A DNA stretch of 64,000 nucleotides from a virus. A program made the translations under genes and the position numbers. The stretch covers positions 1 through 64,000 of IMG/VR virus record IMGVR_UViG_3300027969_000060. The stretch is one strand, 5' to 3'. Of the stretch, positions 880 through 27,712 are shown one piece after another; position 1 is the stretch's first letter; every line of letters starts with the position of its first letter. Under the pieces are notes generated by a model, which worked only from the letters and a program-made list of their open reading frames with translations, made no database searches and was not told where the DNA came from.

Positions 880-3525
880 TTAATTCTTTGGTAATTTTGA
901 TAGTATTGATTTCATTAACTCCGCAGGATTCATTTGTCCTCCTGGGAATTGGATGTTCTGGTTGGGCATACCTTGTTGAGCATTCGTAAATTGACCGCCA
1001 ACCAATTTTTGAATTTTTTTAGCCATATCATCTGGATTATTAAAATCTAATTCTTCATCTCCAAATTTAAGTTTCATGTTTTTAGCCATGTCGTTAAATT
1101 TAGTTCCTAGATCACCTGATGAATTAGCCATGTCGTTAAATTTGCCCATTACATCATCATAAGATGCAGGTTGACCGTTAATTGTGCCTGTGCTAGTAGA
1201 TGAGTTAGTAGATGTATTAGTGTTCGATGAATGCGGGCCTTGTAATTTAGCAATCAACGCATTGAGCTGGTCTAAACGAGGGTCTGCGCCTGCTTCGTCA
1301 ACTTCAATATTATGATTTGGTACGCCTGCTAAACGAATAATATCAACATGTTGATTGTGTGCGCTACCAGGATCTTTCATGTCAATAAATTTCATGACTC
1401 TTGTTAACTCTTCTGGGTTAACTTCCCCAAATGCACCGTCTTCAAACTGTTTCTTTAATTTAATTTTAATTCTTTCAGCGCCAAGTGGGAATGTACCGTT
1501 TTCTTTATTGTAGAATCCAGAGATAAATTTCATCATCTCATGAAGACCGTCTACTATCTCGCCGTCAAATCCAAAGTCTTCTGGACTCATGCCAGATTCT
1601 TTAATAGCATCGTGTAATGTAATTTCTCTAGATCCAAGATCCATTTTAGTATCAAGAGTTGCGCCTGCGTCTTTAGCTTTCTTAATTGCTTTGGCCATAC
1701 CTTGATGTGCTAGATGTTTAGCAGTACTGTGTCCTAATCCATGCTTACCGGCTTTAGCAATAGGATTCTTTCTAGGAGGATCAGGATCAAACGGTGGATC
1801 TTCGCTTTCTGGTAGAGGTGTTGGTTCTGTTGCTGGGGGTGTTGCACCTAATGCGCCGCCATCTGCTACCGCTTCTGGACCGCCTGGTAATGCAGGAGCA
1901 GGTTCAGTTGCCGCTGGAACTGGGGCCGGAGCCGGTGCTGCCGCAGGAGCAGGAGGTTGTTGTACTTCAGGATTGCCGCCATCAAAATGTATACGTGTTG
2001 CAATGTCTGGATCTCTTTGTAAAATAAATTGCTGTACTAAAGGACGTACATCTAAATCTGGATCAATATCACGTAATGAATTTAAAAATTCTACGTCGTC
2101 AATTAGGCCACGTAAACTTTCAATTGCATTAACACCTTCTGGGCCACCTTTTAATTCTTTAGAAAGAATTTGATTTAATTTTTCAATGGCGGCGTTTTGT
2201 GCATCTTTATTAGGACTAAAAATTTCATCTTTATCTTCACGAATAATATTATTCATAAAGTTTTCGTATGCTAACTCGAGATTTAAACTTTCATATACGT
2301 CAAACTCTTCTGCACCGGGAATCTTTTTGCCTGTTTCTATTTCGTGTTGTTTGGCCGCATGTCTAGCTGATTTACCTGCTTTTGAAGCAGAATCTTCATC
2401 GGGTGTGTCACTGTTAAAATAATCATCATGACGTTTTTTATGTTCTTTATAACGGTGATGCCAATCTGTTTTTATTGCAGTCTCAGTTTTAAATGATTCA
2501 TCAACTAAATCTTCAGCATTGAGTTCTAACACAGGCAACTCGGACTCGTCAACAAACTTATAAATGTATGGAAATACTGCTTTTAGTTCTTCGTTAAATG
2601 TTCGGATAGTCAAACGATCGATTAGATCGTTTGCAACTGCTTCGGGAATCATTTGTTCTTCTTGTTCTTCAAATGCTTCTACAAATGATTGGTAATATGC
2701 CGGGCGTTGTAATTTGTGAATAGTTTCTTTAATTTCTTCAATGCGCTCAATAACACGCTCTGTTACATTACCCATTGCTTCGCTGATTTGTTCTTGGCGA
2801 TTAACATATCCTTTAAACTTACGCAGACTTGCAAGCTCTTCTGACAAATTGCAAATATGTTTACCAATAGCATCGTATGGATTACCACCAGCTTTAATAT
2901 GTTCTGCCAATGCACGAGCACCATTTAAATGTTTGTAAGGATAACGGAACCGTTCGCCTTGATTGTTTTCAACATATATACTGTCAATGTGCATAGTGCG
3001 GCCAGCAGCCAAATCTAAATTGATTGGTTGTGTATGCTTAACCACTAGTCTCGCTTCCCCTAGATCTTGGTAGCTCATTCTAGCATTGCCGTACATTTTA
3101 CTTTCCATAACTGGTTCTTGAGGCATAACTGGTTCTTCCTTACGTTTTGCTTGAAACTCGTAATCTCGTTTATCCATATTACTCTTTCCAATGTTTTGTA
3201 CATCAAAATTTAAGAGTCTATCTTTAGCAAATTGTCTAAAACTACGGATGAATTTATAAGCATTATGATGTGTAGTATCGTCGTCATCGTTGACTAAATC
3301 TCCACTTACTTGCACCACAATTCCGTCATCGGCATCTAATGTAATAGCAATAGTTCCCAAAGGTTCACCGTCTTCGGTGTACTCGAATTCAAAAAATCGA
3401 GCTTTAGGAATATCTTCTTTTTTGCTTAATACAGCGGCATTTTCGTCCCCAATCTTGATGTTGGGGAAACGTGTTTGTATCTTTCCATACAAATCTTTAG
3501 CGATCTTATCTAAATTTGCGTCCAT
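880..3525 (-). CDS. Large conserved-looking protein of unknown function, probably virion-associated
   Basis: 881 aa. No family was recognised. The N-terminal 500 residues are mixed alpha/beta and highly charged. A Pro/Ala-rich linker at about residues 516-585 separates them from a C-terminal part that includes a Ser/Thr/Asn tract near residues 765-780 and ends in an Asn/Gln-rich tail. The gene lies directly downstream of gp17, where portal gp20 or head-core genes often sit in T4-like phages, but none of the portal sequence features are visible. Its start has no Shine-Dalgarno; instead a late-promoter octamer CATAAATA ends 5 nt before the ATG, predicting a leaderless transcript. A head or neck-associated structural role is inference from position. 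Confidence 0.8.
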   Translation of the reverse strand: MDANLDKIAKDLYGKIQTRFPNIKIGDENAAVLSKKEDIPKARFFEFEYTEDGEPLGTIAITLDADDGIVVQVSGDLVNDDDDTTHHNAYKFIRSFRQFAKDRLLNFDVQNIGKSNMDKRDYEFQAKRKEEPVMPQEPVMESKMYGNARMSYQDLGEARLVVKHTQPINLDLAAGRTMHIDSIYVENNQGERFRYPYKHLNGARALAEHIKAGGNPYDAIGKHICNLSEELASLRKFKGYVNRQEQISEAMGNVTERVIERIEEIKETIHKLQRPAYYQSFVEAFEEQEEQMIPEAVANDLIDRLTIRTFNEELKAVFPYIYKFVDESELPVLELNAEDLVDESFKTETAIKTDWHHRYKEHKKRHDDYFNSDTPDEDSASKAGKSARHAAKQHEIETGKKIPGAEEFDVYESLNLELAYENFMNNIIREDKDEIFSPNKDAQNAAIEKLNQILSKELKGGPEGVNAIESLRGLIDDVEFLNSLRDIDPDLDVRPLVQQFILQRDPDIATRIHFDGGNPEVQQPPAPAAAPAPAPVPAATEPAPALPGGPEAVADGGALGATPPATEPTPLPESEDPPFDPDPPRKNPIAKAGKHGLGHSTAKHLAHQGMAKAIKKAKDAGATLDTKMDLGSREITLHDAIKESGMSPEDFGFDGEIVDGLHEMMKFISGFYNKENGTFPLGAERIKIKLKKQFEDGAFGEVNPEELTRVMKFIDMKDPGSAHNQHVDIIRLAGVPNHNIEVDEAGADPRLDQLNALIAKLQGPHSSNTNTSTNSSTSTGTINGQPASYDDVMGKFNDMANSSGDLGTKFNDMAKNMKLKFGDEELDFNNPDDMAKKIQKLVGGQFTNAQQGMPNQNIQFPGGQMNPAELMKSILSKLPKN

Positions 3526-3529
3526 GTTA

Positions 3530-3537
3530 TATTTATG
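3530..3537 (-). promoter_or_regulatory. T4-type late promoter, leaderless configuration
   Basis: CATAAATA on the minus strand, just beyond the gp17 stop. With T4 late spacing (octamer at -13 to -6), transcription would start within a base of the ATG of the 881-aa gene. No Shine-Dalgarno lies between. Confidence 0.6.
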
Positions 3538-3538
3538 C

Positions 3539-5131
3539 TTAGTTACTAGAAATGAATATAGGCAACGGTGCTTCCCAATCTTCGTCGGCTGTTGCTTCTA
3601 TTGTAAGTTTTTCAAAAACTCCCGGATCCCATTCGGCTAAAATTACAGTCATACGTACAATCAGCAGTAGTGCAGATACTAAGTCGTCATGCTGTCCGTC
3701 TTTAGCTTTAAACGTAACACCCAAAGCAATGAATGTTTTAAGTTCACTTAATAGGGTTTTGCTGTGTATTGTCATTTTATTTTCTTCAATAAAGTACTTT
3801 AAACGACTACAAGCTGATATTTTGTTGCCATGGGTAGTATTAAATCCTTTGCGGAATTTACGTACATGCCCTTTTCGAACAGGCTCGCTTAGGAATAATC
3901 CGGGAAATGTTTCTTCACCTAGGTTAGCAATAACAACTAGGGCCGCCTCGCCGATTGTGTTATTTTCAACACTCCAGTAGATATTATCGTTGTATTCTTC
4001 GCCAATTTCTTCTTTAATGTATCTAATTACATCTCTAAATAATTTAACTTGATCTTGTACAATAGTTAAATTATGTTGCCATTCAGCACATTGAATCATG
4101 CTAGGTAACTCAAATACCTGTATACCCGCAAAGTCGCCTCCTGTTCCTAAACTAGGATCTAGGCCAATAAGATAAATGTTTCCCGGCGTTGGCTTCTTAT
4201 ACCAGCGAACTTGTCCTGTTTTAAACTGCGGCTCTCTTCCTACCAGTTCTGCTAGTTTAATAGAACTAATTAATGTTTCATCAAAGATTAAAAACTCACA
4301 ACCATATTCTCGACGGAACTTTTCTTCACCGATACGACCCATTTCAACTTCTTTCCATTTATCATCTCTATCAGGGTGTTCGTGCCATTCAGCTCGAAAT
4401 CCGTGGAATCCATTACGGCCTAATCCATCAGTACGTTCGTTGCCAAACACATCAAACAAATCTTTTGATTCTTTCCATATAGTAGCAAATGTATCTTCGT
4501 CTGAATTTGGTGTGCTTGTAATAATTGCACGGCCACCAGTTGCTAGTGTAGGGGATATTGAAGTCCAAAACTCTTCCGCAATGTTCGGTTGCACAAATGC
4601 AAACTCATCGCAATATAGTAATGATATAGACATACCACGACCTGTTGTACCTGTTGTTGTCTGCGCAACAATTCGTGATCCGTTGTCAAATTCTATACTT
4701 TGTTTGTTATAACTAACAACACCACAGCGTATGAAATCTTCGCATAATTCGTATCCATAACGAATACGTTGCATAATTTCCTGGGCGCCTGTGTATTTGT
4801 GCGCGGCGACTAGAATTGTTTGATCAGGATGAAACATAGCGTACCATAGCAAGTATGCTGATGCGCATGTTGTCTTGCCGCTCTGACGGGGTAGCATATT
4901 GATATTGAATCGAAAATCGTGATAACTGCCCAACAATCGTTCCTGGTATTCAAAAGGCTGAAATTTCATTTTACCTCTTACAGGATGCTGGATATGAAAA
5001 AAGTTCTGGGCAAAGTGCAAATAGCCGTAATCGGGGTCAGCACACTTCAATAAGTGCGTAACTTGGTCTTCGCTAAACTTTTCTTTTGTGTGCGCTTTTT
5101 TGGTTAAGACGCCGTCGAGTGATTTTGCCAT
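3539..5131 (-). CDS. terL: Terminase large subunit (gp17-like)
   Basis: 530 aa. This is the ATPase/nuclease motor that pumps DNA into the prohead and cuts the concatemer. Visible motifs: Walker A LPRQSGKTT (residues 80-88), Walker B SLLYCDEF (170-177), coupling motif ITSTPNS (204-210). A C-terminal RNase H-like nuclease has acidic residues in LIGLDPS (D325), WSVENN (E389) and QHDDLVSA (D482/D483). Length is near the 610 aa of T4 gp17, with a shorter N-terminus. The gene follows an intrinsic terminator and has its own late-promoter octamer TGTAAATA, whose predicted start point is exactly the A of the ATG. No Shine-Dalgarno is present. Its small-subunit partner is at 6442-6930. Confidence 0.97.
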   Translation of the reverse strand: MAKSLDGVLTKKAHTKEKFSEDQVTHLLKCADPDYGYLHFAQNFFHIQHPVRGKMKFQPFEYQERLLGSYHDFRFNINMLPRQSGKTTCASAYLLWYAMFHPDQTILVAAHKYTGAQEIMQRIRYGYELCEDFIRCGVVSYNKQSIEFDNGSRIVAQTTTGTTGRGMSISLLYCDEFAFVQPNIAEEFWTSISPTLATGGRAIITSTPNSDEDTFATIWKESKDLFDVFGNERTDGLGRNGFHGFRAEWHEHPDRDDKWKEVEMGRIGEEKFRREYGCEFLIFDETLISSIKLAELVGREPQFKTGQVRWYKKPTPGNIYLIGLDPSLGTGGDFAGIQVFELPSMIQCAEWQHNLTIVQDQVKLFRDVIRYIKEEIGEEYNDNIYWSVENNTIGEAALVVIANLGEETFPGLFLSEPVRKGHVRKFRKGFNTTHGNKISACSRLKYFIEENKMTIHSKTLLSELKTFIALGVTFKAKDGQHDDLVSALLLIVRMTVILAEWDPGVFEKLTIEATADEDWEAPLPIFISSN

Positions 5132-5136
5132 ATGCT

Positions 5137-5144
5137 TATTTACA
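5137..5144 (-). promoter_or_regulatory. T4-type late promoter for terL, leaderless configuration
   Basis: TGTAAATA on the minus strand (7 of 8 to TATAAATA). The predicted +1 coincides with the A of the terL start codon at 5131. It lies just downstream of the terminator hairpin, so terL can be transcribed independently of upstream genes. Confidence 0.6.
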
Positions 5145-5145
5145 T

Positions 5146-5173
5146 AAAAAAAGGGCCATAAAGGCCCTTTTTT
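5146..5173. terminator. Two-way intrinsic terminator
   Basis: A7-GGGCC-ATAAA-GGCCC-T6: a GC stem of five pairs extended by A/T pairing, with U-tracts on both strands. It lies just after the stop of the 205-aa gene and ends minus-strand transcripts coming from gp16 and the head genes before terL. Confidence 0.88.
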
Positions 5174-5189
5174 GGATACTAGAAAATAG

Positions 5190-5807: not shown

Positions 5808-5808
5808 A

Positions 5809-6420
5809 TTATAATCCTTTAGTAGTGGGCAATTTAACTTTCTTGCTGCCTACGGTACTTGTTGTTTTCTTTGTAGTCTTTGACTCTTTAGCATACTCTC
5901 TGTGTGCAGATTTTGCTAGTAGTTGATCGTTGACTCCGGTATATTCTTTGCCGGTATGTTTAGATTTGCTTAATTCTTTTAATAATGCCATCTTTTGTTT
6001 TTCACCAACTAAAGATTGTCCATCATTATTTGCTTCGTAATCTTTACCTAATAGTGTTTCACCTGACTTGTTGTCATGTTCATGATTAAGTTCGTCTTCT
6101 TCTTCTTCTTTTAAATTTCTTACACTAATTTTACTATCAGTGAATCCAGCACTAGCAATAGCATTTTTAACTTGTAAACTAGTTGTAGGATATGCTAATG
6201 TAACATCAAAAATAGTAACATTGGTATTCTTTAAAGATGGGAAGTCAATTGGACTTTCTTGAATCGGGGTTCTGCGAGGTGCTGAGCAATTTTCAAGTTT
6301 ATATTGCTCTAAAGCCATTTTAATTTTTTTAAGACTTTCTGGTTTAATTTCGCCAGCAAATCTTATTTTAAATTCGTAAACTTTTTTGCTTTCTGTTAGG
6401 TATTCTTTAAATGATTTCAT
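5809..6420 (-). CDS. Putative internal head protein with a capsid-targeting-like leader
   Basis: 203 aa. It starts MKSFKEYLTESKK, close to the T4 internal-protein leader (known form MKTYQEFIAEA) and with L-T-E as a candidate prohead-protease site. Residues about 14-105 look like a small alpha/beta domain (KVYEFKIRFAGEI...VTIFDVTLAYPTTS), then an acidic EEEEDE patch, then a Lys/Ser-rich basic tail (KESKTTKKTTSTVG) that could bind DNA. A late-promoter octamer AATAAATA overlaps the gp16 stop, and an AGGA Shine-Dalgarno lies before the ATG. No homologue is known to me. Injection with the DNA is inference. Confidence 0.72.
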   Translation of the reverse strand: MKSFKEYLTESKKVYEFKIRFAGEIKPESLKKIKMALEQYKLENCSAPRRTPIQESPIDFPSLKNTNVTIFDVTLAYPTTSLQVKNAIASAGFTDSKISVRNLKEEEEDELNHEHDNKSGETLLGKDYEANNDGQSLVGEKQKMALLKELSKSKHTGKEYTGVNDQLLAKSAHREYAKESKTTKKTTSTVGSKKVKLPTTKGL

Positions 6421-6438
6421 TGTACATTCCTGTTACTA

Positions 6439-6446
6439 TATTTATT
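6439..6446 (-). promoter_or_regulatory. T4-type late promoter (leadered)
   Basis: AATAAATA on the minus strand, overlapping the stop of the gp16-like gene. The predicted leader to the 203-aa gene is about 13 nt and includes an AGGA ribosome site. Confidence 0.55.
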
Positions 6447-6930
6447 TCATATTCTTTAATTTTTCAATTAAACTATTACGATCAGTAACAATAAATCCTT
6501 CACCGTTGATGTTAATTCCGGGATCTTCTCCGCCAATAGCATCCTGATCTAACTTTTGCTTTTTTAATTGAAGCTCAATTATCTTAAGTTTTTTGTCAAT
6601 TTTAGCTGATTTTGCATCAATAGCGTTCTTAAGCATGCCGCCTGCTACTTCAAAAATCCTGCTTGAATAACGTGCTTCTACGTTCATGCCCAAGTCCATT
6701 AGGTCATCATATGCATCGGTAGCACGTTGAGCAAGTGCATCTAATTCTGCATCAGCAATATCTCCCAGTCCTTTAACTTGTGGTAAACTAGCAGATATTT
6801 TGTCAAATTCTTCCATACTACGTAAAAAAGTTTCTGGCTTTGCGGCCATATCTTTTTGCTTTTTCTTTTCTTCTGCTTTGATAAGTTCTTTACTAGCTGG
6901 CAGATTTAAAATTTCTTCAAGTTTTTTCAT
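6442..6930 (-). CDS. terS: Terminase small subunit (gp16-like)
   Basis: 162 aa, close to the 164 aa of T4 gp16. The protein is almost wholly helical: an N-terminal LEEILNLPASKEL segment, a charged linker, then a central helical pair (YDDLMDLGMNVEARYSSRIF, then AKIDKKLKIIELQLKKQKL) typical of the oligomerising coiled-coil core of T4-like gp16. The C-terminus ends in an IVTDRNSLIEKL helix. The small subunit recognises DNA and stimulates the gp17 ATPase. Identification rests on this helical pattern, the length and the position two genes upstream of terL. There is no Shine-Dalgarno; a variant octamer GATAAGTA is placed so that transcription would begin at the start codon. Confidence 0.75.
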   Translation of the reverse strand: MKKLEEILNLPASKELIKAEEKKKQKDMAAKPETFLRSMEEFDKISASLPQVKGLGDIADAELDALAQRATDAYDDLMDLGMNVEARYSSRIFEVAGGMLKNAIDAKSAKIDKKLKIIELQLKKQKLDQDAIGGEDPGININGEGFIVTDRNSLIEKLKNMK

Positions 6931-6935
6931 ACTAA

Positions 6936-6943
6936 TACTTATC
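6936..6943 (-). promoter_or_regulatory. Variant late promoter, leaderless configuration
   Basis: GATAAGTA on the minus strand (two mismatches to TATAAATA). Its last base is 6 nt from the A of the gp16 ATG, the same spacing as at terL and the gp54-like gene. Weaker than the canonical octamers. Confidence 0.4.
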
Positions 6944-6945
6944 AG

Positions 6946-7857
6946 TTAGGGCCGTTCGTCAGGTTCAAAAATCTGTATATCTTTAAGTTTAGATCCGCTC
7001 TTATATTGTGAGGTCCAAATATATCCGTCTATTAATCCTAATTTTTTACAAAACTCTGAATTAAACACACCGTCTATTCTTAATGTAAATTTATTTTCGC
7101 TTTCAGTATCTACACCGTGATTATCAGCGGCATTAAATGTATACACTGGGCAATTATAATAGATTTTTTCTTTCTTTATCTCATCGTATACAAAAGCAGG
7201 CCTGTTTTTAGTAAATTGAATTGAAATATGATGCATCTTACTAGGTAATAATCCACTATCTCGGTGTATACAAACTGGATTGTTTTTAGAATTTTCAAAA
7301 ATTACAATTCTTCCTATCTCATCAAAAATGTTCCACGATTTAATCCAATTGTCAAGCAATGGAGTGTTTTCAATCCTTTCTCCGTTAGACTGAATTTTTG
7401 TAAAGTCAACAGCCCCCGATGCATTTCTAGAATTAAGATTTGGCCTCATAATAAACGTCATATTATTCCAACTAGGCTTTGCTAAACCAGTATTGTATAC
7501 ATAAGAGGTTATTTCTATATTTGTTTTTAAAGAAGCTCTAATATTTTCGGGAATGTATTGTTCAGCTCTCCATACATAGTAAGTTAAATATTTTTGATTG
7601 TTAATATCTTCAGGCACGTATGTGCTGTTGTATGCGTGATGAGATACTTTAGGATTTTTTATAATTTGTAATAGCTCTTGTTCAACGTCTCTAGCTTGGG
7701 TAGAGTCGACGTTAATAATATCAGAGAGATCAAAAAACGGATTTCCGCCTGTACCTATGCCAAGGATTCCAACTTCGTACCATTTAATAATCTTATATTG
7801 AAATTCTGGATTGATTTGTTTAAAACACGATATGGATGAGCGATCTTGATGTGGCAT
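6946..7857 (-). CDS. Fe(II)/2-oxoglutarate-dependent oxygenase-like protein
   Basis: 303 aa. The C-terminal half has the jelly-roll oxygenase signature: H198-x-D200 in VCIHRDSG, a distal H247 in NAADNHGVD and R260 in FTLRIDG, the usual iron facial triad plus 2OG-binding Arg. The substrate is unknown. T4-like phages of aquatic hosts carry many such enzymes; proposed roles are protein, nucleobase or glycan hydroxylation. The N-terminal 180 residues are not recognised. It lies between gp4 and gp16 in a late cluster, so action on a virion component or packaged DNA is possible (inference). The start lacks a Shine-Dalgarno; a CATAAGTA octamer predicts a leaderless transcript. Confidence 0.75.
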   Translation of the reverse strand: MPHQDRSSISCFKQINPEFQYKIIKWYEVGILGIGTGGNPFFDLSDIINVDSTQARDVEQELLQIIKNPKVSHHAYNSTYVPEDINNQKYLTYYVWRAEQYIPENIRASLKTNIEITSYVYNTGLAKPSWNNMTFIMRPNLNSRNASGAVDFTKIQSNGERIENTPLLDNWIKSWNIFDEIGRIVIFENSKNNPVCIHRDSGLLPSKMHHISIQFTKNRPAFVYDEIKKEKIYYNCPVYTFNAADNHGVDTESENKFTLRIDGVFNSEFCKKLGLIDGYIWTSQYKSGSKLKDIQIFEPDERP

Positions 7858-7862
7858 GCAAT

Positions 7863-7870
7863 TACTTATG
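7863..7870 (-). promoter_or_regulatory. Variant late promoter, leaderless configuration
   Basis: CATAAGTA on the minus strand. The predicted +1 is the A of the oxygenase ATG at 7857. It carries the same A-to-G change as the element before gp16. Confidence 0.42.
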
Positions 7871-7874
7871 CCAA

Positions 7875-8306: not shown

Positions 8307-8307
8307 A

Positions 8308-8679: not shown

Positions 8680-8683
8680 ATTG

Positions 8684-9682
8684 TTAACCTAATTTAACTG
8701 GTAATGCGGCAATTGTATTAGTTATTGCATTTGCTACTGGAAATGCAATACCCTGTATGCCGCTCACGCCCTGCTGGGCAGATTTTACTAAGTTAGACAA
8801 TAGTCCCGGGGTACCTTGGGTGCCAGGCTCTTTTGTATTTTGATAACCATTGACAGTTGATGTTAAGTTATCTAAAAAGGCTTGTCCGTTGTTTTGTACA
8901 GCGCCGTTGCTTACAAAAGACGGACTTGCTGTTGTTAATCCTGCACCGCCTTGTAACGGGCTAGGTGTTGTATCATAGTGCTCTATTCCAAAGCCTTCTG
9001 GATCACCTGCAGATATCTGTCCTGACCCATAAGCCACTGCCTCGTATTGAATTACGGCAGTATTGTCGTTAACTTGTGTTCCTTGAGCAGAATCTAATGG
9101 ATTATGATTCCAGCTGGCAAAAATAGGATTAATTAATTTGTAACTAACGTATTCGTGTCTTGCTAATTGATAAATGGTTATATAATTAAAAAACGGTAGG
9201 ATACTGCCGTTATCAAACCCGTAGTTACCAGAAATGTAATTAGAATTTTTTGTAGCTGTTCTATTATATGCGCCAGCATTTTGTGCTTGGGTTGAATCAG
9301 CAAAATAATAGCTGTAATAATTTTGCCACAGTTGATTTATTAGCCCCATATTATCGTCATGGAATTTAATGTTTAAATTATTATACTTGTGACCTGTCAT
9401 CACATTTTTCTTTCTATTATATTGATTTAACGTTTCAGTACTAATAGTATAGTAAGGTAAGTCTACACTTTTAACTAACATGTTAATTTCATTTCTGTGG
9501 CGCTGTATAAGATCAATACTCTTCAACGCCGCAGGATTTATATTAAACGCTACATGGTATAGAAATTTAGTTTTAGGTAATAATCTAAAACCGTCATCGG
9601 AGAACAAACGAGCCGCGTGTTGTTGATCACGCAACTGAGTTGCCTCAGTAAGATTTAAATGTTGACTAGGTATGAATGCCAT
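8684..9682 (-). CDS. Tail-tube-fold protein, candidate baseplate-tube junction protein (gp54/gp48-like)
   Basis: 332 aa. The central 230 residues follow the T4 tube-protein pattern: a segment with VKSVDLPYYTISTETLNQYN, then YNNLNIKFHDD, a helix with IYQLARHEYVSYKL and a final strand block NTAVIQYEAVAYGSG. Gp54 (320 aa) and gp19 share this fold in T4, and the length favours gp54, which initiates tube polymerisation on the baseplate. The last 90 residues are Gly/Ser/Thr-rich. A paralogous tube gene (gp19) lies immediately upstream. A terminator separates them and a late octamer AATAAATA sits exactly in the leaderless position. Assignment between gp54, gp48 and a second tube protein is uncertain. 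Confidence 0.62.
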   Translation of the reverse strand: MAFIPSQHLNLTEATQLRDQQHAARLFSDDGFRLLPKTKFLYHVAFNINPAALKSIDLIQRHRNEINMLVKSVDLPYYTISTETLNQYNRKKNVMTGHKYNNLNIKFHDDNMGLINQLWQNYYSYYFADSTQAQNAGAYNRTATKNSNYISGNYGFDNGSILPFFNYITIYQLARHEYVSYKLINPIFASWNHNPLDSAQGTQVNDNTAVIQYEAVAYGSGQISAGDPEGFGIEHYDTTPSPLQGGAGLTTASPSFVSNGAVQNNGQAFLDNLTSTVNGYQNTKEPGTQGTPGLLSNLVKSAQQGVSGIQGIAFPVANAITNTIAALPVKLG

Positions 9683-9687
9683 AACAA

Positions 9688-9695
9688 TATTTATT
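9688..9695 (-). promoter_or_regulatory. T4-type late promoter, leaderless configuration
   Basis: AATAAATA on the minus strand; predicted +1 is the A of the ATG at 9682. No Shine-Dalgarno is present between octamer and start. Confidence 0.6.
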
Positions 9696-9730
9696 TAAAT
9701 AATAAACTACGCAGTTAATACACAGTCAAT

Positions 9731-9753
9731 AAAAAGCCCACATCATGTGGGCT
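9731..9753 (-). terminator. Intrinsic terminator after gp19
   Basis: Minus-strand AGCCCACAT-G-ATGTGGGCT followed by TTTTA. The inner pairs give a long stem and the U-tract is on the minus strand. It lies just past the gp19 stop and isolates the tube transcript from the gp54-like gene. Confidence 0.85.
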
Positions 9754-9758
9754 AATTA

Positions 9759-10397: not shown

Positions 10398-10412
10398 ATT
10401 CTTATGCTCCGT

Positions 10413-13400
10413 TTATTTGCCTAGGCCTTTGATCTCACCAGTATTCTTCAAGCGTAATGGAATGTAAATAAACTCCACTGCTTTTACTGGCTCAATTGCA
10501 ATGTCTAGATATAGTTCACTACGATCGATTCTAGATGGTGTGTTGTTTGATTCGTCACACACTACTAGGTAATCATACAATGCACGTTGTCCTACTAATT
10601 CTAACAATAGGCTTTCTGCGGCTTGTTTAATTTCGTCTCGTGTAATTTTGTCGTTTGGTTCAAATACATATGGTTTTGCCAACTGCGCAAACTGTCTACG
10701 TAAGTAAATTACTAAACGTGCTACGTTAATACGATCTAAACTACTTGCATTCTTAGCGCGAGTGTATTGTCCGTAGTTAACAAGACCTGTTCCTGTAATG
10801 AATGTTAATGGATTAACCTTAACACTTGCTAGCGTATCACGCTGGCCGTTATTCAATGCAACTGATTGGAATTCACCTTCGCTAGTGATATAACCAACTG
10901 CTGTTGCGTTAGTAATACCGCCTCGACGTGTTCCTGCCGGTGCAAACCATGGATAAGAAACGTTATCGCTTAGTGCAATAGTGCGTAGCATCATGTGGCT
11001 TGGAGGAATAACTACGTTGTTACCTAAGTTATCACTTGTGAAACCCCATGGATAGAAACAACCTAAATACTCGTCAAAGCTAACTAAACCACCATCGTTA
11101 TCTTCTAACGCTCCTGCTAAGTTATTACCCCAGTTGCTTAATGTTGTAGCATCTGGTGTTAAACGAGCAGGTGTATCTCCAACTACGAATGCTGTTAGAC
11201 CACGATCGTAGTTCAAGCTGACCATTTCACCAATTAGTTCTGGATATCCTGGGCAAGCAATTAAGTTAAACACACGTGATTCTTCATCACGGATTTGTTG
11301 GTTGCTGTTAACTAATGCTTGTAGTGCTTGTACAACAACTTTACGCTGTGCCTTGCGACCAAATGTACCACTGCCATCTTCTTGATTGCCAGCTTCACTT
11401 ACCCAACGGTGTGGATAGTATTCTGTCATCGGATCGCCACCGGCGCCACCAATTCTATAGTTAGTTTCAGTTGTGTCAATATAATCACGTACAAAACGCT
11501 TAACGTTGAAACCGCTTCTGCGTAGGTTCCATAACAACATACCTTTTGGATATAGTGCAGGATCCGGAGCGTCAAAGTCTAAGAAATTATATGTCAATAG
11601 ATTAGCAATTGAGTCCGATTCAATATCGTTGCCTGCACCTGACCAACGTGCATCAGCAAATAAAATTCCATCTTCTGTTGTTTGATCAGAATTATCAACT
11701 GCCACCCATTTCTTAGTTACATAGTTGAATTTGTAGATCTTTGGGAAATTTTCTAAATCACTAGTGTCGACCCAAATATCACCGTGGGCTAGTTCAGTTT
11801 CGCCGTCTGTACGATCAGCCGCTGTTGGCTTACTAGCACGTACAAATGGACCTGCTGGATCTGTTGCTGGGCCACCTACTGCTGTTTGGTCAAAGTTGGC
11901 ATACCCAACCCATGTTGTACCGTTATGGATCATAATGTCCACTTCGTCAATCATTGAGTTGTACCATAAACGTCCATCGGCTGGAAGTGTTGTTGGCTCA
12001 GTTGGGGTTGCTACTGCAAATCCCACGCCAGCAATAGTTGAAGACCATAATGATACTTGATAAGTTGCATCACCGCTTGGATCATCATATAAATGTGCAG
12101 TAGTGCCTACGGCCATAATCGAGTCTAGTGTGGCTCCGTTATCTGTAATTCTAAAATCACCGCCTAATTTGTGGCTAATTGTTACAATACCCGATGTTGC
12201 ATCGTATTCTGCAAGTATATTAGTTAATCCTGCTAGACCAATTTCTTCAGCTAGTGTTTCACCGTCTGTGCTATCGCCCAGTGCTGTAAATGTAATCGCT
12301 AAACTTGGACCAGATAATTCTGTACTGCCTTTTAAAGATTCGCTAATTGTAAAGTTTATAACGTCGTCTTCGGCAAATCCACCACTTATGAAACTTGTAG
12401 TTTTAAGAGTTGTAGCGCCAACACCGTTGCGATAGAACAACTTAAAGTTAGCCATGATATCGCCGGCACCATTTGTACCTTGTTCTGCATCGTCAAACTT
12501 AACATATAATGAATTCAATGCTAAATTAATGCCGCCGCCGGTTGGGTCTAATTTTGCAAGGGCTGTAGCATTGTCTGCATATAATGGAGCCCTTGAGTCA
12601 ACCCAAGCTGCCGAAGCTGAATTGTAATAACGTACCTTCCAGTTTGCACCTAAGTTAGGAGTTGTTGTCTTAACCCAAACTGAACCAGTTGCATTACCGT
12701 TATTGTACACTTCTGTAGTTCTCTTAAAATTAGGAATATCAGTATGTGGCTTAATATTCAATGCAGGGGCTTTAAATGTTAATGTTGCACCTGATTGTGA
12801 AGCTTGACTAATTAATCCAAGTTGGTAAAGTACGCTAGTTATGCCGGTTCCAGAACCGCTAATAACAATATTATTGCCATTGCCTGTAGAATAAAGTTCT
12901 AATCTACCGTTTACCTTGGCTGCTGTAACACCTAGAATGCTTGCATCATTGATGTTTTTAACAAGGCCGGCACTTACGCCGTCACCTAAAACAGTTGCGG
13001 CGCCAATGTTTACAGTACTACCATTGATTATAATAGAACCGGCATTTAGTGTTGGGTTAGATGCTGTACCACGTACAGTTGCCCAACTCTTAGCCCATAA
13101 GTCTGATCCAACTTCATGCCATTCACCGCTAGTGTTTTTAAAATATAATGTAATGGATGTTGTTGTAGCATCAATAGCATAATCACCGGCTGCGCCGATA
13201 CTAGCCTTAGGAGCACTGCCAGCACCAGATGATAATTTTGATGCGTTTGTAATTACTATTGGATATTGTACAGTAAATGTTTGACCGCCGGATACTGATT
13301 GGCTATCGCTGTTCCACTGGAAAATACCGTAGTTTGTTGCGTCAGTTTCAAACCAGTAAGTATTATTTTCTGGTTCGCCTGCTGGCGGTTCTGCGCTAGC

Positions 13401-13763
13401 ATCTAGCTGGGTAGTGTCAATATCTGCACGTACTACAAAAGCACGATTACTTACACCTAAATAACTATATGCGGCTTGTAATCCGTATTCGTTCTGTTCA
13501 CCAGCATGAATAGGATTGTTATTAGCATCAGTTTTAAATACTGGTGTACCAAAAGTATCTGCTAAATCTTTCTGGCTTGTTAGTAAATAAACCTTGCCAG
13601 CATTTGCTGTTACTGTACCAAGTGCGGTTCCTGTTGCTGAACCATTTTGCTTGCCTTCGGCAGAAGCGACGATAATTAAAGGGGTTGTGCCAGGTGCAGA
13701 CGGTGTATAGAACGATTCGTCTATTACTGTAACTGCTACGCCTGGTGAACTTAATTGAGCCAT
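10413..13763 (-). CDS. 18: Tail sheath protein (gp18-like), greatly enlarged
   Basis: 1116 aa against 659 in T4. The N-terminus MAQLSSPGVAVTVIDESFY and the C-terminal 400 residues (from about 700: NFLDFDAPDPALYPKG..., VFNLIACPGYPEL at about 826, FYPWGF, TRAKNASSLDRINVARLVIY, ending KNTGEIKGLGK) are typical sheath core. Residues about 150-700 are an inserted beta-rich, Ala/Thr/Gly-rich region with repeats of the INTWYN/SMIDEVDIMIHNGTTW type (strand-turn-Trp). Such inserts in sheath proteins are expected to face outward and may decorate the tail. A perfect late promoter TATAAATA and a GGAGAT Shine-Dalgarno precede it. The enzyme-free structural role is certain; the insert's role is not. Confidence 0.95.
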   Translation of the reverse strand: MAQLSSPGVAVTVIDESFYTPSAPGTTPLIIVASAEGKQNGSATGTALGTVTANAGKVYLLTSQKDLADTFGTPVFKTDANNNPIHAGEQNEYGLQAAYSYLGVSNRAFVVRADIDTTQLDASAEPPAGEPENNTYWFETDATNYGIFQWNSDSQSVSGGQTFTVQYPIVITNASKLSSGAGSAPKASIGAAGDYAIDATTTSITLYFKNTSGEWHEVGSDLWAKSWATVRGTASNPTLNAGSIIINGSTVNIGAATVLGDGVSAGLVKNINDASILGVTAAKVNGRLELYSTGNGNNIVISGSGTGITSVLYQLGLISQASQSGATLTFKAPALNIKPHTDIPNFKRTTEVYNNGNATGSVWVKTTTPNLGANWKVRYYNSASAAWVDSRAPLYADNATALAKLDPTGGGINLALNSLYVKFDDAEQGTNGAGDIMANFKLFYRNGVGATTLKTTSFISGGFAEDDVINFTISESLKGSTELSGPSLAITFTALGDSTDGETLAEEIGLAGLTNILAEYDATSGIVTISHKLGGDFRITDNGATLDSIMAVGTTAHLYDDPSGDATYQVSLWSSTIAGVGFAVATPTEPTTLPADGRLWYNSMIDEVDIMIHNGTTWVGYANFDQTAVGGPATDPAGPFVRASKPTAADRTDGETELAHGDIWVDTSDLENFPKIYKFNYVTKKWVAVDNSDQTTEDGILFADARWSGAGNDIESDSIANLLTYNFLDFDAPDPALYPKGMLLWNLRRSGFNVKRFVRDYIDTTETNYRIGGAGGDPMTEYYPHRWVSEAGNQEDGSGTFGRKAQRKVVVQALQALVNSNQQIRDEESRVFNLIACPGYPELIGEMVSLNYDRGLTAFVVGDTPARLTPDATTLSNWGNNLAGALEDNDGGLVSFDEYLGCFYPWGFTSDNLGNNVVIPPSHMMLRTIALSDNVSYPWFAPAGTRRGGITNATAVGYITSEGEFQSVALNNGQRDTLASVKVNPLTFITGTGLVNYGQYTRAKNASSLDRINVARLVIYLRRQFAQLAKPYVFEPNDKITRDEIKQAAESLLLELVGQRALYDYLVVCDESNNTPSRIDRSELYLDIAIEPVKAVEFIYIPLRLKNTGEIKGLGK

Positions 13764-13796
13764 TTGTTGATCTCCAATGAATACTATTTCTACATG

Positions 13797-13804
13797 TATT
13801 TATA
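13797..13804 (-). promoter_or_regulatory. T4-type late promoter for gp18
   Basis: A perfect TATAAATA on the minus strand. Predicted leader is about 28 nt and contains the GGAGAT ribosome site. This is the strongest consensus match in the left half. Confidence 0.75.
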
Positions 13805-13865
13805 GGATTTTGACTTTTTGTACTTGTTATACCATTCAAAAAAGGGGTCAAAAAGGTTTAGTTTT

Positions 13866-13873
13866 TTTAAATA
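13866..13873 (+). promoter_or_regulatory. Possible late promoter, leaderless configuration
   Basis: TTTAAATA on the plus strand (one mismatch), 5 nt from the chosen ATG of the zinc protein, as for gp14 and the 881-aa gene. It sits in an A/T-rich stretch, so chance occurrence is more likely here. Confidence 0.35.
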
Positions 13874-13877
13874 CAGT

Positions 13878-14213
13878 ATGAGACCGTTATGTATATGTGG
13901 CCAAAGGCCTTGTGCTGTTAATTATAAAAAAAACAACAAAATCTATTACCGTAGTTTGTGTGAACAATGTTTAGCACACGGAACATATCACGGAATACCA
14001 AGATGGTCTAGGGCTGGTTATAAGATAAAACCAGTCTGTGACAAATGCGGATTTAAATCACCACACCAAGAAGTTTTTAGTGTATTTCACGTGGACGGCA
14101 ATCTTGATAATTGCCGTCCTGCTAATCTAAAAACAGTTTGTTCTAACTGTGCTCGAGTCCTGCATAAGGAAGGTGTTCGCTGGCGACAAGGGGATCTTGT
14201 ACCAGATCTTTAA
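13878..14213 (+). CDS. Small zinc-binding protein with an HNH-like C-terminal half
   Basis: 111 aa from the internal ATG at 13878; an upstream ATG at 13818 would add 20 residues but they look unlike the family. Cysteines C5, C7 and C12 with C28-x-x-C31 form one likely zinc site; C54-x-x-C57 and C88-x-x-C91 form another, with the HNH-like phrase FHVDGNLDNCRPANL between them. I recall similar small proteins with a CGQRPCAVNY start in marine T4-like phages. The catalytic HNH His-Asn-His set is not complete, so nuclease activity is doubtful. Its last 71 nt overlap the end of the convergent dNMP kinase gene. Confidence 0.7.
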   Translation: MRPLCICGQRPCAVNYKKNNKIYYRSLCEQCLAHGTYHGIPRWSRAGYKIKPVCDKCGFKSPHQEVFSVFHVDGNLDNCRPANLKTVCSNCARVLHKEGVRWRQGDLVPDL

Positions 14214-14823
14214 CTTTAGCAAACAACTCATCTATTGTACTATCGTTAGTTAATACCGCATCAAATTTAGTGCCAACCCAGGCTGTTTCGCTAGCATGAA
14301 TACCTAGGTTTTGCATACGAGTTTTTGCTATCATATAATTCATACAACGATCGCCGGCATTCATATCACACGCATCTTGATACCAAACTGGATCATCACC
14401 ACGTTTTACACAAATAACAATGCCGCCGGCATTTTTAATTGATTTGATTTCGTTAGGAAAACGACAGTCTGAAATGACAATATCGTCCTTGCTATTACGG
14501 AGTTTGTTTTCTACGCTGGCAATCCAGATATCGTCGTGAAATCCATGCCTACAAACTTCAGTTCCCCAGAATTGTAACACCCAACGTGGAGTAAGGTTAG
14601 GCATCATCAAACGTTCTGCCCACCATGGATCAACTTGTTCTCGCCATTCACGGGCCATTTTTGTGCGCCCTTCTAGCATAGTACGGTCCCAACCAAATAC
14701 GTGGGCTACTGCATCTTTTAAACTGTTGGCGAAGCTTTCTCGTCGGAAACCATGGAAGTTAGTTAGATAGTCTGCAATAGTATCTTTACCACTGCCAATA
14801 AATCCGCATACGCCAATAATCAT
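14143..14823 (-). CDS. 1: Deoxynucleoside monophosphate kinase (gp1-like)
   Basis: 226 aa. A P-loop GFIGSGKDT (residues 7-15) opens the protein, followed by a LID/NMP-type arrangement with VISDCRFPNE and the typical ending of a phage dNMP kinase. It phosphorylates dNMPs to dNDPs for phage DNA synthesis and belongs to the family of T4 gp1 (241 aa). This is an early function placed among late structural genes, and it alone has a sigma70-type promoter (TTGACC-17-TATACT) and a strong AGGGGAT Shine-Dalgarno. The final 20 or so codons overlap antisense with the zinc protein. Confidence 0.88.
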   Translation of the reverse strand: MIIGVCGFIGSGKDTIADYLTNFHGFRRESFANSLKDAVAHVFGWDRTMLEGRTKMAREWREQVDPWWAERLMMPNLTPRWVLQFWGTEVCRHGFHDDIWIASVENKLRNSKDDIVISDCRFPNEIKSIKNAGGIVICVKRGDDPVWYQDACDMNAGDRCMNYMIAKTRMQNLGIHASETAWVGTKFDAVLTNDSTIDELFAKVKDLVQDPLVASEHLPYAGLEHS

Positions 14824-14846
14824 AAGAATCCCCTGTAAGTTGTGTT

Positions 14847-14875
14847 AGTATATAACACTTTTGCACAGGGGTCAA
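14847..14875 (-). promoter_or_regulatory. Sigma70-type (early) promoter for the dNMP kinase
   Basis: Minus-strand TTGACC, exact 17-nt spacer, TATACT. Transcription would start near 14840 and give a short leader with the AGGGGAT ribosome site. It is the only clear host-type promoter found in the window. Confidence 0.82.
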
Positions 14876-14883
14876 ATTATTTA

Positions 14884-15654
14884 TTAGCCAATTACAAATG
14901 TTAACGGAGTTCCGCCCGAAACCATATTGTCAATTTCTTTGTCCAGGGCGGTTAGTTCTTCTTTGCCAGCTGATAGCAAAGCCGTACCGTTCATTGTAAT
15001 ACCGCCACCGCCAGGGCCAGCAATACTGGCAAATTTGCTACGTGCTTCACCTAGCATTAGTTTACAAACTGCTAGAGTATAATCGTATAACCACTGCTTT
15101 GCATAGATATCAGTTAGCAATACCCAATCTGGGCGATAATTATGACATCGAATTAAAATTTGTTCACCTTGAGCAAACGGGCGTTGTAAGATAGTTAAAA
15201 TATGGCTTTGCGATTTCCATTTAAATTCGATATAGCTACCAAACATACGCCCTACTAACTTTTGGTATCCAGCAAATAACTCGTAGGTTGCTAGTCCACC
15301 CATCATAGTGCCTGATAGCAAGTAGGTGTTTGTGTACGCCAAGTTGAACGGCTCGAACAATGTTCCGCCTGCACCCAAACCACTACGGCTACCAATTGCA
15401 CGTCTAAAAATGCTTTGTACTTCTACAACTTCATCAGGAAGCCTATACTCGTTTTGATCTTGTATAAGTTCTAAGAACATATAGCTTTCTTCAACAGCAT
15501 TACTGCTACGTTGTCTAAAACGTGTTATAGCACGATTAAGTGCCGTTTCGTAATGTTTAGGATCTAGCTCTACTTCGATCATGCCGTCGCCTAGCATGTC
15601 TTTAACATACTCAAACACTTTGTTACGTTCAATTAATGAGGTGGAATCTGACAT
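14884..15654 (-). CDS. 13: Neck protein (gp13-like)
   Basis: 256 aa against 309 in T4. The N-terminus has the gp13 pattern: a leading helix, MIEVELDPKHYETALNRAIT, then RFRQRSSNAVEESYMFLELI and LPDEVVEVQSIFRR. The middle is beta-rich, with a Gly-rich loop after residue 190. Gp13 forms the neck with gp14 and joins tail to head. Assignment is also supported by its position beside gp14, which here is divergent rather than in tandem as in T4. The start uses a CTAAATA-type late promoter and a GGAGAG Shine-Dalgarno at the very end of the leader. Confidence 0.72.
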   Translation of the reverse strand: MSDSTSLIERNKVFEYVKDMLGDGMIEVELDPKHYETALNRAITRFRQRSSNAVEESYMFLELIQDQNEYRLPDEVVEVQSIFRRAIGSRSGLGAGGTLFEPFNLAYTNTYLLSGTMMGGLATYELFAGYQKLVGRMFGSYIEFKWKSQSHILTILQRPFAQGEQILIRCHNYRPDWVLLTDIYAKQWLYDYTLAVCKLMLGEARSKFASIAGPGGGGITMNGTALLSAGKEELTALDKEIDNMVSGGTPLTFVIG

Positions 15655-15671
15655 TTTTTACTCTCCATTCA

Positions 15672-15679
15672 TATTTAGC
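15672..15679 (-). promoter_or_regulatory. T4-type late promoter for gp13
   Basis: GCTAAATA on the minus strand. The predicted mRNA starts GGAGAG, about 12 nt before the ATG. Back to back with the gp14 promoter. Confidence 0.55.
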
Positions 15680-15683
15680 TAAC

Positions 15684-15691
15684 GATAAATA
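15684..15691 (+). promoter_or_regulatory. T4-type late promoter for gp14, leaderless configuration
   Basis: GATAAATA on the plus strand. The predicted +1 falls within a base of the ATG at 15696, and no Shine-Dalgarno lies between. Only 4 nt separate it from the gp13 octamer on the other strand, so one short region fires both ways. Confidence 0.6.
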
Positions 15692-15695
15692 TCAT

Positions 15696-17258
15696 ATGCC
15701 AAGACTCTCACTGTATAAGCCCGAACGAGGGCAGGACTATAAATTTATAGATCGCCAAATTTCTGAAATGTTTCAGGTTGGCGGTACTGATGTATATTTG
15801 CACAAATACCTAGGGCCTAAAAATCCCACTAACGGTACCTTAGATCAACCAATTTATACCACTCAAAACGTGGCAAATATTCAAGATTTGTTGTTCTTAG
15901 AAAACCGTGATAGAAAATATGGTACAGAAATTTATCGTATTCGTGGCCTGTATAATGTTGCAAATATCGACTTTAACCTAAGTCAGTTTGGTTTATTCTT
16001 AGACCAAGACACTGTATTCATGACAGTGCATATTAACGATTTTATCAAATATATTGGTCGTAAACCTATGAGTGGTGACGTAGTTGAATTACCACATTTA
16101 AGAGATCAGTTTGCGCTTGGTGATGCAGATATAAGTCTTCCTAGATACTTTGTAATTGAAGACGTGGGGCGGGCTAGCGAGGGATTCTCAGCTACATGGT
16201 ATCCTCATTTATACAGATTAAAACTTAAGAAACTTACAAACAATCAACAATTTGCTGATATTCTTAACATGCCAGCAGGTGCCGACCTTGATAAATTTGC
16301 TGGGGATTATGATCCTGAAGTTACATATCATGCTGGTGAAATTATTAGATATAATGGAACACTATATACTGTTACAGCAGATACCACAGGCAATGTTCCA
16401 CCAAACACTAGTTTCTTTAGTGAATACAACAATACGTTAGAAAGTATTTTAAGTACTCGCGCAAAAGAATTAGAAATTAATGATAGAATCTTGCAACAAG
16501 CAGAAGTTGATGCTCCCAAGAGCGGATATGAGACTAGACAATTTTATACACTAGCTGTTGGAACAGATGGCAAACCAATTTTAAATACTGCTGATGCTAC
16601 TAATTTTGATGCTAGTAATAGTACTATTACCGCACAAGAAAGTAGTGCTAGGCCGGTTAGAACAGGCTACACTGGATATCTAGTTGGTGATGGGTTCCCG
16701 GTAAACGGTCACGATTTTGGTCATGGAATTCAATTTCCCGAAGGAGCCGTTACTGATGATTTCTTTTTGCGTACTGATTTTTTACCAAACAGATTATTTC
16801 GATTCAATGGTAGTCGTTGGACAAAAATTGAAGATGCTGTGCGCATGTCAATGACTAATGACAGTAATCGTCAAACTTTGAAAACCGGATTTATTAATAA
16901 TACTGAATACATTTATAATGAACCAACTAGTATTATTGATTCAGTTGCCTTAGAGCGTGGTGATATTGTTATAGATACTATTATTGATTATGCAACAGCA
17001 CCGTATATTCGATTAAAATTATCAGTTGTTATTCTAGGGTTCTCAACAGCCGACTATTCAAATATACTGTCATCATATTCATATACCAACCCAGTTACAC
17101 TAGTGGTAAGTGATAAAGTTAGAATCACGTTGCCGATTATAAACGGTGATCAAATTGTAATACCCGAGACTGGAATTTGGAGTGTTGGTTTATACAATAA
17201 TAGAGAAGAAGTAAGACAGAGTCTTAGTAAAGCTCTTCGACCTAAGGCGGATCTATAA
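15696..17258 (+). CDS. 14: Neck protein (gp14-like) with a long C-terminal extension
   Basis: 520 aa from ATG 15696 (an earlier ATG at 15636 overlaps the gp13 start and is not used). The first 190 residues match T4 gp14: FIDRQISEMFQVGGTDVYLH, IYRIRGLYNVANIDFNLSQFG, TVFMTVHINDFIKYIGRKP, then the DVGRASEGFSATWYPHLYRL strand. T4 gp14 is 256 aa, so about 260 residues are extra. Residues about 200-240 (YDPEVTYHAGEIIRYNGTLY) resemble a CBM5/12-type chitin-binding repeat like those in the giant fibres. Its stop overlaps the next start as TAATG, implying coupled translation with gp15. Confidence 0.86.
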   Translation: MPRLSLYKPERGQDYKFIDRQISEMFQVGGTDVYLHKYLGPKNPTNGTLDQPIYTTQNVANIQDLLFLENRDRKYGTEIYRIRGLYNVANIDFNLSQFGLFLDQDTVFMTVHINDFIKYIGRKPMSGDVVELPHLRDQFALGDADISLPRYFVIEDVGRASEGFSATWYPHLYRLKLKKLTNNQQFADILNMPAGADLDKFAGDYDPEVTYHAGEIIRYNGTLYTVTADTTGNVPPNTSFFSEYNNTLESILSTRAKELEINDRILQQAEVDAPKSGYETRQFYTLAVGTDGKPILNTADATNFDASNSTITAQESSARPVRTGYTGYLVGDGFPVNGHDFGHGIQFPEGAVTDDFFLRTDFLPNRLFRFNGSRWTKIEDAVRMSMTNDSNRQTLKTGFINNTEYIYNEPTSIIDSVALERGDIVIDTIIDYATAPYIRLKLSVVILGFSTADYSNILSSYSYTNPVTLVVSDKVRITLPIINGDQIVIPETGIWSVGLYNNREEVRQSLSKALRPKADL

Positions 17259-27704: not shown

Positions 27705-27712
27705 TATTTATG
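27705..27712 (-). promoter_or_regulatory. T4-type late promoter for the 2619-aa gene
   Basis: CATAAATA on the minus strand with about 13 nt of leader containing GGAGAT. Confidence 0.65.

Follow-up and report, generated by a model that had tools for sequence, protein, structure and literature searches.

T4-type late promoters, those of the gp55/gp33/gp45 system, are marked by an octamer that is reported as TATAAATA or NATAAATA in T4, KVP40 and S-PM2 (excerpt of PMC2984593), with NATAAATA being the form of S-PM2. In T4, this element is 8 bp long and starts at position -13 (excerpt of PMC2988020). Leaderless mRNAs are described from bacteria and phages. In bacterial examples such as lambda cI, the AUG lies at or near the 5' end, no Shine-Dalgarno (SD) sequence is present and the mRNA is mostly bound by 70S ribosomes (excerpt of PMC9031893). 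Kasugamycin is stated to leave leaderless mRNAs uninhibited (abstract of PMC5230787). The middle and late mRNAs of the Thermus phage phiYS40 are mostly leaderless, with host initiation factor IF2 going up and IF3 going down (excerpt of PMC3594737), and another source makes the passing remark that leaderless transcripts are common in phages (excerpt of PMC5312081). Here, we describe a stretch of 64,000 nucleotides (nt) from a large, T4-related freshwater phage (hereafter the window), in which octamers of the T4 late type stand 4 or 5 nt before the start codons of seven genes, an arrangement that predicts leaderless late mRNAs.

In common with T4-type late promoters, these octamers belong to the same sequence class, precede virion genes and are accompanied by a sigma factor of the gp55 family. 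As in the lambda cI-type mRNAs, an SD is lacking, but here its absence goes together with promoters predicted for a phage late sigma factor and affects a group of virion genes. The phiYS40 transcripts are likewise leaderless, as is predicted here, although that phage belongs to another lineage and infects another host, and the excerpt of its description mentions neither a T4 octamer nor gp55 (PMC3594737). Leaderless phage mRNAs are already known from phiYS40, and what is predicted here is their coupling to T4-type late promoters. No report of leaderless late mRNAs in a T4-like phage is found among the literature matches listed, whose coverage leaves subscription journals mostly outside. T4 late transcription is a textbook system and the finding, if true, alters the picture of this classic system. 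It would also mean that a group of phages relies on the leaderless route for a conserved virion set, including both terminase subunits, the connector and tail genes. Leaderless translation is usually treated as a minor route in E. coli-like bacteria.

Late-type octamers at seven start codons

The window comprises bases 1-64000 of the 108,991-base IMG/VR record IMGVR_UViG_3300027969_000060 (labelled G000), which is itself a fragment. All seven genes carry a T4-late-type octamer 4 nt (881-aa, zinc and gp14 genes) or 5 nt (terL, gp16, oxygenase and gp54-like genes) before the ATG, and none (0/7) has an SD. The octamer has the form NATAARTA in five of the seven, terL and the zinc gene each having one further mismatch. 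These features, with open reading frames (ORFs) given after their octamers, are:

3530-3537, minus strand: octamer CATAAATA, 4 nt (TAAC) before the ATG of the 881-aa virion gene
880-3525, minus strand: 881-aa virion structural protein, predicted leaderless (phrog_13484, E 1.5e-15)
5137-5144, minus strand: octamer TGTAAATA with one mismatch, 5 nt upstream of the start codon of terL
3539-5131, minus strand: terminase large subunit (terL), predicted leaderless (phrog_36964, E 2.5e-125)
6936-6943, minus strand: octamer GATAAGTA, 5 nt before the gp16 ATG
6442-6930, minus strand: gp16-like terminase small subunit, predicted leaderless (phrog_445, E 6.2e-5; phrog_16202, E 4.6e-17)
7863-7870, minus strand: octamer CATAAGTA, followed after 5 nt by the ATG of the 303-aa gene
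6946-7857, minus strand: 303-aa gene, the 'first oxygenase' of the initial annotation
9688-9695, minus strand: octamer AATAAATA, 5 nt before the gp54-like ATG
8684-9682, minus strand: gp54-like (name from the initial annotation) or tail-tube-family protein, predicted leaderless (phrog_13438, E 1.6e-9)
13866-13873, plus strand: octamer TTTAAATA, one mismatch, 4 nt before the ATG of a small zinc-finger-like gene
13878-14213, plus strand: 111-aa Cys-rich (zinc) protein, predicted leaderless; its gene and the sheath gene diverge
15684-15691, plus strand: octamer GATAAATA, 4 nt before the gp14 ATG
15696-17258, plus strand: gp14-like (name from the initial annotation) virion protein, predicted leaderless (phrog_11591, E 4.1e-82)

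The initial annotation had reported octamers at these coordinates, at a near-fixed spacing and without an SD, which is borne out in all seven genes. The octamer form that it gave fits five of them and is one base off in terL and in the zinc gene, whilst its spacing of '5 or 6 nt' was counted to the ATG itself; the spacing is near-fixed, with 4 or 5 intervening bases. PHROG and Pfam searches gave no match for either the 303-aa gene or the 111-aa Cys-rich protein. The longest ORF of gp14 opens at 15636, and its start is put at 15696 on the basis of the N-terminus, MPRLSLY or MPRISLY, that it has in common with relatives there. The same layout is found elsewhere in G000, before a 2OG-Fe(II) oxygenase gene (64967-65434, following what appears by eye to be a terminator-like hairpin), a head maturation protease gene (67789-68415) and a 79-aa gene starting at 69599, and in relatives it also precedes genes for an AlgH/DUF179 protein, an epimerase and a QueC-like protein.

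Spacing of the octamers relative to chance

The relatives of G000 form a clade of freshwater jumbo phages, represented here by seven genomes (G000-G006) of 38-40% G+C. ATAARTA is depleted in the window, where 23 sites are found and 52.9 are expected from shuffles, and 14 of these 23 lie at most 54 nt upstream of a gene start. The 36 nt upstream of candidate ATG starts were shuffled 500 times and TAARTA was counted at 4 or 5 nt. Among the 91 candidate starts of G000, taken from 67 ORFs, nine have TAARTA at this distance (shuffle mean 0.43, maximum 3) and none has it at 0-3, 6 or 7 nt, so the refuting condition named in the initial annotation, shuffles that give the spacing just as often, does not apply to this genome. 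Corresponding counts are 20 in G001 (mean 1.40, maximum 6), 14 in G004 (0.96 and 6), 10 in G005 (0.85 and 4), and 8 in both G002 (0.75 and 5) and G006 (0.55 and 4).

The preference is equally sharp when approached from the octamer. In 358 distinct ATAAATA contexts, drawn from the window and the loci of relatives, the next ORF-opening ATG lies at 4 nt in 76 and at 5 nt in 82, with 3, 4, 0 and 1 cases at 0, 1, 2 and 3 nt, none at 6 nt and five at 7 nt. The 20 remaining orderings of these seven letters place 0-5% of their sites at 4-6 nt, with the exception of TAAATAA (19%), which is ATAAATA shifted. Over the seven genomes, 73 TAARTA sites fall at offsets 4 and 5, versus 32 over the eleven offsets 6-16. 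The start codons at 4 or 5 nt comprise 92 ATG versus 14 GTG or TTG, counts that are unfiltered for in-frame extension and have no matched background.

Conservation among orthologues

Two scans of viral contigs yielded 156 distinct loci, and close relatives dominate this sample because each scan retains the best 80 of >570 relatives. For each gene, distinct 40-nt upstream sequences were compared, excluding loci without 60 nt of upstream sequence or without a nearby ATG. TAARTA stands 4 or 5 nt from the ATG in 73/74 of these for the 881-aa gene, 78/82 for terL, 80/82 for gp16, 58/58 for the gp54-like gene, 47/49 for the zinc gene and 14/21 for gp14; the 303-aa 'oxygenase' gene has it in 2/2, only two distinct upstream sequences existing. 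In five of the seven genes, 95-100% of the distinct sequences compared retain the close spacing. Nine neighbouring families together have it in 1/497 (p205 0/70, p203 0/73, gp4 0/86, p123 1/86, tube 0/58, sheath 0/45, dNMP kinase 0/37, gp13 0/27 and gp15 0/15). A loose SD pattern occurs in 5% of upstreams for the 881-aa gene, 5% for terL, 17% for gp16, 0% for the oxygenase, 2% for the gp54-like gene and 0% for gp14, and in 84-100% for the neighbours, except p123 (47%) and gp4 (2%).

In most of the exceptions, orthologues trade the close octamer for an SD. All four terL exceptions (L059, L063, L083 and L117) lack a close octamer and have an SD-like stretch. One of the two distinct gp16 exceptions (shared by L078 and L084) likewise has an SD-like stretch without the close octamer. 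The other (L126), together with the zinc gene exceptions L127 and L131, has TAARTA farther off in addition to an SD-like stretch.

Two classes of putative late promoter

Close and distant octamers differ in SD content: in G000-G006, ATAARTA at 4 or 5 nt is accompanied by an SD in 2/48 cases, versus 79/96 for sites at 12-45 nt (Fisher p 7e-21). At the 88 close TAARTA sites, the base before the ATG is C or T in 79, compared with 423/888 among the remaining ORFs that start with ATG and span 100 or more codons (p 1e-15); the 88 include three doubtful sites that were left in, two that by eye seem to lie inside a longer ORF (G004 1258 and G005 131576) and one that is antisense within the giant gene 19827-27686 (G000 26776, plus strand). 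Transcription starts typically show a pyrimidine-purine step. In the leadered class, such steps most often have their purine in the fifth position downstream of the octamer (40/86; 17-30 at the other positions examined). The statement of the initial annotation that gp18, gp13 and the giant genes have longer leaders and an SD holds. The predicted leadered late promoters of the window are:

13797-13803, minus strand: tail sheath gene, whose ATG is 33 nt away and is preceded by an SD; an internal contrast
61502-61508, minus strand: 17 nt to the ATG of 58281-61484
52463-52469, minus strand: 28 nt to the ATG of giant gene 46513-52434
46485-46491, minus strand: 26 nt to the ATG of giant gene 37774-46458
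37436-37442, minus strand: 21 nt to the ATG of 37088-37414
28218-28224, minus strand: 27 nt to the ATG of 27708-28190
27705-27711, minus strand: 18 nt to the ATG of giant gene 19827-27686
6439-6445, minus strand: 18 nt to the ATG of gene 5809-6420

Room for a leader

At terL, the space available for a leader is bounded by a terminator:

5146-5167, minus strand: intrinsic terminator before terL (hairpin 5153-5167, then seven T), which ends 14 nt upstream of the start codon

Its hairpin has a folding energy of -9.9 kcal/mol in the identical relative L007, and in 77/82 relatives a run of five or more T, preceded by a hairpin at least as stable as -5 kcal/mol, ends 12-15 nt before the terL ATG. 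Divergent genes leave similarly little room. The gp14 ATG (15696) is 41 nt from that of the divergent gp13 (15654). Octamer-bearing divergent pairs in G001 have 38 nt (12956 minus/12995 plus) and 28 nt (25446 minus/25475 plus) between their ATGs, each gap holding two back-to-back octamers. In the Pelagibacter phage HTVC008M, the ATGs of gp4 (18943, plus) and gp2 (18916, minus), a pair annotated as a head-closure and a DNA-end-protector gene, are separated by 26 nt, which again contain two back-to-back octamers. In some relatives with the 4-nt spacing (terL of G004, gp16 of G001 and G006, and the zinc gene of G002, G004 and G006), an in-frame stop codon lies two codons before the ATG, which is therefore the first possible start.

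Late sigma factor and proposed mechanism

G000 encodes a gp55-type late sigma factor (80298-81131, minus strand; phrog_12791 E 5.4e-73, phrog_234 E 1e-24), which phmmer also relates to T4 gp55 (E 2.2e-7). As the T4 octamer starts at -13, a 5-nt spacer puts the transcription start (+1) on the A of the ATG. We consider it very likely that the octamers are gp55-type late promoters with +1 at the A of the AUG, giving rise to leaderless late mRNAs. The host RNA polymerase, carrying the phage gp55-like sigma, would read T4-type octamers. Where the promoter is fixed near the gene, in a defined late set, transcription would start on the A of the AUG or about one base off, yielding an mRNA with a 5'-AUG. 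An mRNA that begins at the AUG can have no SD and so requires the leaderless route, in which the ribosome would bind directly at the 5'-terminal AUG. The same promoter placed farther away (mostly at least 17 nt) would produce an ordinary leadered mRNA with an SD. The octamers, their spacing and conservation, the absence of an SD, the terminator and the sigma gene are observed; from these, we infer the exact +1, promoter activity, lateness and leader-free translation. The leaderless reading of the initial annotation is thus supported by the conservation, the opposite SD content of the two classes, the pyrimidine at -1, the terL terminator and the gp55 sigma, and leaderlessness, being read from sequence, is a strong prediction rather than a demonstration.

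Occurrence in other phages

In the phage collection, the terL proteins nearest to that of G000 come from jumbo phages, with PA5oct and its kin 53% identical across 98% of the length, Phosso 49% across 99% and Atu_ph07 54% across 80%. In T4 (bases 50001-70000 left out), no ORF-opening ATG is closer than 12 nt to any of the 59 ATAAATA sites, in contrast to the large subset at 4 or 5 nt in the clade studied here, and 22/25 of the T4 octamer sites at 12-45 nt have an SD. ATAAATA is found at 4 or 5 nt in 0/38 sites of Syn9 and 0/59 of S-PM2, in 0/22, 0/30 and 0/8 in the parts of CBB, Atu_ph07 and Phosso examined, and in 2/145 of PA5oct. The looser TAARTA occurs there twice in T4 and once each in Syn9 and the CBB and Atu_ph07 parts. 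PA5oct and the parts of CBB, Atu_ph07 and Phosso are not above their shuffles, and PA5oct has single candidates. One of these is PA5oct 144985-145854 (L162:36095-36964), a structural protein noted by electrospray ionization tandem mass spectrometry (ESI-MS/MS), whose ATG is preceded at 5 nt by ATAAATA, without an obvious SD; it is a candidate for a single leaderless gene in a cultured phage. Transcription start-site work on cyanophage Syn9 reportedly exists.

The arrangement recurs in HTVC008M, where 9/45 ATAAATA sites lie exactly 5 nt before an ORF-opening ATG. An SD accompanies 2/9 of these and a pyrimidine is at -1 in 8/9, and the shuffle test gives 12 (mean 1.53, maximum 6). On both strands together, ATAAATA-N5-ATG occurs 9 times in HTVC008M, 8 in Mosig and 4 in Melnitz, versus 1, 0 and 0 for the reversed pattern, and the gp2 relatives of all three carry it. 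HTVC008M and Mosig (phages of Pelagibacter) and Melnitz (of Methylophilales) are assigned to the Kyanoviridae and, in contrast to the clade described here, the genes concerned are mostly other ones and the spacing is nearly always 5. Because HTVC008M shares its family with Syn9 and S-PM2, both without the pattern, the arrangement probably arose at least twice, as judged from family placement rather than a tree. On a broader view, which we offer tentatively as a possibility, promoter-gene distance may act as a two-state code in parts of the T4 superfamily, 4-5 nt giving leaderless and longer distances SD-led mRNAs, so that one sigma would serve two translation routes. Orthologues would switch between states by loss and gain of signals, the code would have arisen at least twice (in the freshwater jumbo clade and in Pelagibacter/Methylophilales myophages), and it would favour packaging and connector genes when late ribosomes or initiation factors change.

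The spacing offers a simple sequence criterion by which late promoters and true gene starts could be recognised in uncultured phages. It may help in pelagimyophages, for which late-promoter prediction was reported as unsuccessful (excerpt of PMC7029224); late promoters have been predicted for Melnitz, with leaderlessness unmentioned in the excerpt of that report (PMC9004378). The prediction is testable in the cultured pair of HTVC008M and Pelagibacter HTCC1062.

Alternative explanations

A quite different role for the octamer would be that of a translation-enhancing element, an A/U-rich or other non-SD ribosome contact within mRNAs that start farther upstream, with no promoter involved. Five of the seven genes closely follow a gene on the same strand and could be co-transcribed, the TAA of the octamer in gp16 orthologues appears by eye to be the stop codon of the upstream gene, which would permit reinitiation, and gp4 manages without octamer and SD in most orthologues. 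However, the same octamer also stands farther upstream of SD-led genes, a terminator ends 12-15 nt before terL in 77/82 relatives, and no gene on the same strand immediately precedes the divergent genes (gp14, the zinc gene and the G001 and HTVC008M pairs). The pyrimidine bias at -1 also resembles a transcription-start signature, and we judge such an element to be quite improbable. Chance in AT-rich sequence is a negligible prospect. The genomes are 38-40% G+C, and G003, Mosig and Melnitz are not above shuffles, but the counts in G000 (9 vs mean 0.43), G001 (20 vs 1.40) and HTVC008M (12 vs 1.53) all exceed the shuffle maximum and the spacing is conserved in orthologues. For the clade as a whole, chance is ruled out by the shuffles, the permuted 7-mers and the conservation, though not for G003 alone.

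Very short leaders of 1-3 nt, still translated in the leaderless manner, are an unlikely but more serious variant, which overlaps with initiation at the AUG itself so that the odds of the two are not exclusive. Transcription start sites vary by one or two bases, and the eight listed gp14 exceptions fit a 3-nt leader, but the sharp dominance of 4 and 5 nt and the pyrimidine directly before the A of the ATG are hard to explain in this way.

Several observations weigh against promoters that start transcription on the AUG. By the T4 rule, a 4-nt spacer places +1 one base inside the AUG, so that a one-base shift is needed. The zinc gene upstreams match the loose SD pattern in 42/49 cases (86%), the matches being, by eye, an AAGG upstream of the octamer in relatives. 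All eight gp14 exceptions among those listed have TAAATA 7 nt from the ATG, possibly giving a 3-nt leader, and the sole exception of the 881-aa gene (L145) has neither the octamer nor a clear SD. The gp4 gene has neither signal (octamer 0/86, SD 2/86) and genes with distant octamers often lack an SD in cyanophages (SD in 5/17 for Syn9 and 11/24 for S-PM2); a missing SD alone is therefore not diagnostic. G003 taken alone is not significant (4 sites; mean 0.97, maximum 5), and Mosig (6 vs maximum 9) and Melnitz (3 vs maximum 6) fall within their shuffles. As to the machinery, a Pfam search matched the gp55 homologue of G000 to no family, a T4 gp45 query had a single match outside T4, in G005, which is weak and not firm (E 0.046), and two scans of bacterial genomes for the host of the phage gave no relative.

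Translation helpers and other features

Three phage-encoded helpers of leaderless translation were considered and rejected. An IF3 domain is found in 2/13 records (Phosso and Atu_ph07) and in none of the examined parts of G000-G006. Ribosomal protein bS21 is encoded in 5/17 records (G001, HTVC008M, PA5oct, Phosso and Atu_ph07; L277-L280), including phages without the pattern. The one initiator-like tRNA, in G001, does not have three G-C pairs in its anticodon stem. The IF3 domains lie at 382560-382817 in Phosso (L223; E 1.8e-31) and 256-501 in Atu_ph07 (L224; E 2.1e-25), which are related jumbo phages of Sinorhizobium and Agrobacterium, respectively.

A tRNA search of the G000 record found none. 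In G001, a dense array of 37 predicted tRNA genes occupies ~42.7-49.3 kb (L166:2941-9450), with one further at 19041; its initiator-like tRNA (L166 3471-3544) has, by eye, C1 and A72. Four of the seven clade genomes, G000 not among them, carry a pair consisting of a CAT-anticodon tRNA, presumably more like tRNA-Ile2 than Met, and tRNA-Arg(TCT) (L170:18067-18224, L178:17604-17763, L184:5027-5185 and L206:9825-9982).

The window also holds four giant genes, 19827-27686 (2619 aa), 37774-46458 (2894 aa), 46513-52434 (1973 aa) and 53173-58125 (1650 aa), the first three of which have leadered late octamers 18-28 nt upstream. Finally, a short tandem repeat with the plus-strand unit gctgccgcagga is seen by eye at ~530-596, inside gene 82-870 (minus strand).

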